Shown here in pieces: positions 30,996 through 32,354 of a stretch of DNA of 64,000 nucleotides. The DNA is from Zeus faber (lineage: Eukaryota; Chordata; Actinopteri; Zeiformes; Zeidae), in NCBI GenBank assembly GCA_960531495.1, contig OY482859.1:9696161-9760160 (forward strand). The letters are read 5' to 3'. The translations under genes and the position numbers were made by a program. Positions within the stretch are counted from its first letter, which is position 1; each line of letters opens with the position of its first letter. Below the pieces are notes generated by a model. That model saw nothing but the letters and a program-made list of their open reading frames with translations, was not told the DNA's origin and did no database searches.

Positions 30996-31883
30996 TCAGC
31001 AAGGCTCGCTGCAGGCGTGGCCGCACGTCGTCCGGCAGCACTTCTGTTCCCCGGGACACTGGCCATCGTGGTAACAATATTCGGCGCACATGGGTGTCCC
31101 CTGGGGAAGGGCGCAGCGGCCACGCTTCACTACGGCAACAGAAAGACACGGGGGGAGGAGGGTCCAAATGAGGGAGACTAATCAAGAGAAATAAGGACAA
31201 GTGGGCGTCCGGGCGGGGGGGCGTTCAGTGTGATGTTGCTGGACGGCAGTTTGGGGGGGGTTTCAATCTCACCTGTATACGGGGCGATGCACTCGTGACC
31301 GCATCCGTTGTGGCAGCATTTTTCGGCGTGGGGGCAGTCGCTGTCGTCAGAGCAGTACTCACCACACAGGCCTGCACCCCAGGTCCTGCGAGGACAGATG
31401 CCTGGCTTGGCTTTTGGGGAAAAGGGGAAGCAGTTTTTGTGTGTGTTTGTGTGTTTGTGTGTACGGTCCAGAAACACTAAGCATTAACCCTAAAAAACAG
31501 CCACTGAACACAACCGTCCTGCCCTCCTCCCGCCTTCCCTCCCAGGTGACATGCTGCGTCCTCTCCTGCACGGCGAGCGCTACGTGGCCGGCTACGGCCT
31601 GCAGACCGGAGAGATCCACACCCTGATGTACAACAACCACCCCTACCGCGCCTTCCCCGTGCTGCTGCTGGACACGGTGCCGTGGTACCTCCGCCTCTAC
31701 ATCCACACCCTGACTGTCACCAGCAAGGGGAAGGACAACAAGCCTAGTAAGTTGCCTGGAGGGTGGTGTGGGTTGTACAGGGGTGTCATTCTTTAGGGAA
31801 GTGACAGATTAGATTTAATTCTACCTGACAATAAAGACTTGTTACAGTGTGGGTAAATAGACAGATAGATAGATTGATGGGTG

Positions 31884-31926
<43 letters not shown>

Positions 31927-31931
31927 GGGTG

Positions 31932-31974
<43 letters not shown>

Positions 31975-31979
31975 GGGTG

Positions 31980-32011
<32 letters not shown>

Positions 32012-32354
32012 CACCTTATTGTTCCAAGGAGTGAAATCACAATTTCCCAGCAGCTCACATCAAAATAATAGGAAGTAATGAGAACAAACAATACAATAAA
32101 AATATGAAAATTCAAATCTAAAAAGGAAAGTGGCAATCTATGGGAAATGTGAAATATACAATAAAACTGACAGTTGATCGTAAACAATAAAAAATATAGC
32201 AGGATGATTGAAAATAAACCTGAACATTTTCAGCAGTATGGACCTGAAGAATTAAAGCAGTAAAAACAGAATGAGGAATATAAATGTAAAATGATACAGG
32301 TCCTGCGAGGACAGACGCCTGGCTTGGCTTTTGGTGAAAAGCAGAAGCAGTGTA

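Follow-up and report, generated by a model that had tools for sequence, protein, structure and literature searches.

Gene conversion has been documented extensively in fishes, and among 164 duplicated teleost genes a median of 7-8% of post-duplication codon substitutions were assigned to it (PMC10503786). In its interlocus (ectopic, non-allelic) form, it leaves an identical tract within more diverged paralogous sequence and can join neighboring copies on one chromosome over a few hundred bp. The locus described here resembles such cases in each of these respects; however, its partners are an exon of a gene and the fragment of that exon borne in an intron of another gene, not duplicate genes. 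The other closely related system is the set of break-repair insertions in rice, which measure 10-1000 bp and arise as tandem duplications or from ectopic donors (Vaughn and Bennetzen 2014, as summarized in part in PMC7407515). On the one hand, our insert matches the rice cases in its size range, its duplication from an ectopic donor, and its direct repeat of the target. On the other hand, the host is a fish, the donor is a neighboring gene 6 kb away, and the junction lies beside a (TG)n tract common to donor and target, unlike the rice insertions in that summary, which also does not include the combination of an ectopic donor and a target repeat within one insertion. No report of this locus was found among the titles and abstract openings covered by a partial literature search.

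The window, that is, the whole stretch of 64,000 nucleotides that was analyzed, corresponds to positions 9,696,161 to 9,760,160 of Zeus faber contig OY482859.1, in an assembly of 803,497,848 bases and 153 contigs. The history that we consider likely is an old templated insertion made at the repair of a break, followed by recent gene conversion over the identical core of the insert. Insertion and conversion are both known kinds of DNA repair; the interest lies in the two clocks that stand at one locus, where the age of the insertion can be read from the target repeats and that of the later copying would be read from the core. Two convergent genes are involved:

21449..28630, plus strand, pigt gene (PIG-T, a GPI transamidase subunit); exon model with 11 coding exons, 635 amino acids, frame intact
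25537..25737, plus strand, pigt exon 8 (the source exon), 201 bp; AG/GT splice sites and frame
30996..33850, minus strand, gene with three WAP domains; exon models and Pfam WAP (three stretches, E 1.7e-30)
33850-33748, 32774-32631, 31401-31273, and 31129-30996 (including the stop), minus strand, exons of the WAP gene; exon models

The pigt product scores E 1.6e-150 against Pfam Gpi16, the peptide encoded by exon 8 aligns with PIG-T of PDB 7wld (E 2.9e-32), and the assignment is also backed by fish PIG-T orthologs. Of the 120 matches listed from a total of 929, and considering those with more than 480 conserved columns covered, the nearest is the protein from Myripristis murdjan, identical in 94.3% of 540 columns, which places the host among the spiny-rayed fishes. 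In the WAP gene, a start of exon 3 at 31401 preserves the reading frame and gives the second WAP domain its first cysteine, and this boundary agrees with the eight-cysteine pattern of the domain. Intron 1 of the same gene contains a TTA-rich minisatellite at 33149-33641, with periods of 83, 107, and 190 bp.

The initial annotation, made from the sequence, had placed a copy of a pigt exon at 31474..32282, in an intron of the WAP gene. Homology to pigt does span these positions, and the copy can now be assigned to intron 2, in antisense orientation. Its parts and their sources are as follows:

25518..25852, plus strand, 335-bp identical core, source copy; exact match, one of two places in the genome
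31527..31861, plus strand, the same 335-bp core as it stands in intron 2 of the WAP gene, to which it is antisense; exact match
25465..25517, plus strand, left flank, source; 3/53 differences
31474..31526, plus strand, left flank, copy; alignment to source
25876..26133, plus strand, right flank, source; 17/256 differences, three indels
32011..32282, plus strand, right flank, copy; alignment to source
25848-25876, unstranded, (ATAG)n in the pigt source, 7.2 units; repeat analysis
31857..32011, unstranded, (ATAG)n array of 38.8 units between the core and the right flank of the copy

The reported identity of 335 bases proved to be a maximal exact match with 0 differences. It covers exon 8 (201/335, or 60%) with its two splice sites, along with 115 bp of intron 8, as had been described, and we add 19 bp of intron 7. 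A search of the whole 803-Mb assembly with the core returned two candidates, both scored, which are these two places only. An mRNA retrocopy is ruled out, since intron sequence is retained on both sides of the copied exon; exonization in the WAP gene is likewise ruled out, as the copy is antisense and its pigt splice sites are unread in WAP transcripts. The divergence of the flanks, estimated by eye at 5-8%, comes to 5.7% on the left and 6.6%, plus the three indels, on the right. The right flank is AT-rich (28% GC), and its mismatches are unevenly spread: 1/60 in 25908-25967 versus 8/60 in 26000-26059, with 7 and 8 mismatches in a pair of 60-column windows that overlap within 25968-26059. The (ATAG)n array of the copy has a 48-bp higher-order period, 98% alike over 3.2 copies.

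Around the insert there is a target duplication, which is new relative to the first reading of the sequence. The junctions and the left edge of the source are built as follows:

31380..31462, unstranded, proximal copy (copy 1) of the target duplication; contains the acceptor of WAP exon 3 plus 22 bases from the start of that exon
31463..31473, unstranded, 11-base stretch at the left junction, without a convincing source in the window
32283..32296, unstranded, filler of 14 bp at the right junction, for which a search of the window gave no other source
32297..32381, unstranded, distal copy (copy 2) of the target duplication; carries a decoy of the WAP exon 3 acceptor, whose exonic sequence would start at 32318
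25372..25464, unstranded, (GT)n tract in pigt intron 7, bordering the copied source segment on the left

The two copies of the target, 83-85 bp in length, share 89% identity across 85 columns (E about 1e-29), with a 2-base gap in the alignment, and bracket the insert as direct repeats of WAP sequence that run into (TG)n. Two features expected of a templated insertion with target duplication are seen: the donor, the exon 8 region of pigt, is intact elsewhere, and the insert is bordered by repeats of the target in direct orientation. For the 14-bp filler, the sole match of at least 9 bases within the window is an 11-base reverse complement at 27121; for the 11-bp stretch, no match of at least 9 bases within the window was reported. 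The duplicated distal acceptor at 32318 lies upstream of the real one and has a less pure pyrimidine tract. Splicing to this decoy is predicted to add 28 residues and then a stop.

The target repeats provide a measure of age that is independent of the copied pigt segment. Outside TG they differ at 5/58 positions, in agreement with the 20/309 of the flanks (Fisher P = 0.57) and in disagreement with the 0/335 of the core (P = 6e-5). Because the repeats match the flanks and not the core, the insertion appears to be old, and it looks as though the younger core was homogenized afterwards. The core also differs from the flanks directly (0/335 versus 20/309, Fisher 3e-7, with core bounds picked after the data were seen). 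A single age of duplication, which the initial annotation had considered inadequate, is indeed a poor fit: the step in identity is real and the repeats serve as a second clock. The stepped identity and the target-repeat comparison together support its proposal of gene conversion between copies 6 kb apart.

The main alternative raised there, an error of assembly, has been weakened, and we retain it as unlikely. Under this explanation, the second copy exists, but gap filling or polishing put pigt sequence in place of its middle part, or else haplotypes were mixed; a mis-filled patch might look like the core, which has more diverged sequence on both sides and a microsatellite at its right end. 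However, 153 contigs for 803 Mb and a window with no N suggest that long reads were used, and such reads would cross the entire 0.9-kb insert. Moreover, diverged flanks and target repeats are present on either side of the core.

It is distinctly unlikely that there was one old duplication, with the core kept intact by chance, selection, or a low mutation rate. The conserved exon does make up 60% of the core, and the low GC content and clustered changes of the right flank also count in favor of this reading; however, the antisense copy in the WAP intron should not be under the constraint of a pigt exon. Even with the exon evolving at half rate, flank divergence of 4.7-6.5% leads one to expect 11-15 differences in the core. 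The noncoding part of the core alone shows 0/134 differences versus 20/309 in the flanks (P = 8e-4, with the boundary picked after the data were seen). A run-length permutation allows for this choice of boundary: there are 644 aligned columns with 20 mismatches, and the longest clean run is 339 columns, i.e., the core plus 4 columns. At equal rates, a run of 339 was reached in 2/200,000 shuffles (0/100,000 in a second run; analytic bound, 4.8e-6). With the exon at half rate it was reached in 2/100,000 shuffles, and at quarter rate in 36/100,000. With the exon taken out, the number rose to 1,995/200,000, or about 1%, and the noncoding evidence alone is therefore moderate. Given the exon-free and slowed-exon tests and the uneven differences of the right flank, later homogenization is likely rather than proven. 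A different form of selection, in which antisense RNA from the WAP intron would tune pigt splicing or feed small RNAs, and pairing would keep the core identical, seems to us very improbable. It would draw on a feature that can be read directly from the sequence: the WAP pre-mRNA includes 335 nucleotides perfectly complementary to the pigt pre-mRNA, over exon 8 and its splice sites.

In pigt, a dispersed repeat (26109-26538) overlaps and follows the right end of the copied segment; it has at least 47 matches, including the locus itself, with 40 of 1039 candidates scored. Repeat copy L006 matches from 26109 on, and copy L005 reaches further left into the right flank, over 69 columns when aligned with pigt and 112 when aligned with the copy in the WAP intron. 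Because both overlap the copied part, homology probably stops, at 26133, within an old repeat, and this position is not a secure guide to the original breakpoint. Transposon capture was considered as well; the core has only two matches in the genome, and it is the right flank and the pigt sequence following it that resemble the dispersed repeat. Comparison with L005, one repeat copy at about 75% identity, suggests that the 9-bp and 7-bp gaps in the right flank are deletions in pigt. If so, they are changes since the insertion, and this speaks against copying errors at the time of insertion. A single recent insertion, in which error-prone synthesis left errors toward the two ends but an error-free center, is hardly credible: break-induced replication is called highly mutagenic (PMC7407515), but errors at about 6% would be required across about 300 bp, together with a complete absence of errors across 335 bp, the target repeats have diverged to a similar degree, two of the right-flank indels look like pigt-side deletions judging by that one repeat copy, and the ATAG arrays are of very unlike length.

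We thus return to an old insertion followed by conversion. In the first step, a break at the border of intron 2 and exon 3 of the WAP gene would have been under repair when about 0.67 kb of pigt (the end of intron 7, exon 8, and the start of intron 8) was templated in, leaving the target duplication and the short stretches of unexplained bases. The (TG)n tracts common to donor and target may have guided one junction, and the target duplication could have arisen by either staggered-break filling or template switching. In the second, recent step, interlocus gene conversion would have acted between the two copies, which lie in the same orientation, over a tract of at least 335 bp. Such a tract is on the long side, since the likelihood estimate of one review puts the mean at tens to hundreds of bp; among the experiments cited there, means are about 200-300 bp, with a yeast study giving 500 bp (PMC3924818).

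As to direction, transfer from pigt to the WAP intron appears likelier, because overwriting of pigt by a long-decayed copy would probably be visible in its sequence, and in exon 8 we found 0/67 residues that are private or near-private among the up to 120 of 929 orthologs listed. This test weakly favors pigt as the donor: exon 8 is conserved anyway, and exons 2, 3, 4, 6, and 11 are equally without private residues among the same orthologs.

If this history is correct, a gene fragment in the intron of a neighbor can keep exchanging sequence with a conserved gene. The 335-bp direct repeat now brackets pigt exons 9-11 together with the last two exons of the WAP gene, and unequal recombination between its copies could delete those exons. 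The simple repeats of the window include three TG arrays that are long (46.5-50 units) and almost pure, at 23594-23691, 25372-25464, and 32357-32456; BLAST detected further TG arrays around 51084-51188 and, on the opposite strand, around 15826-15946.
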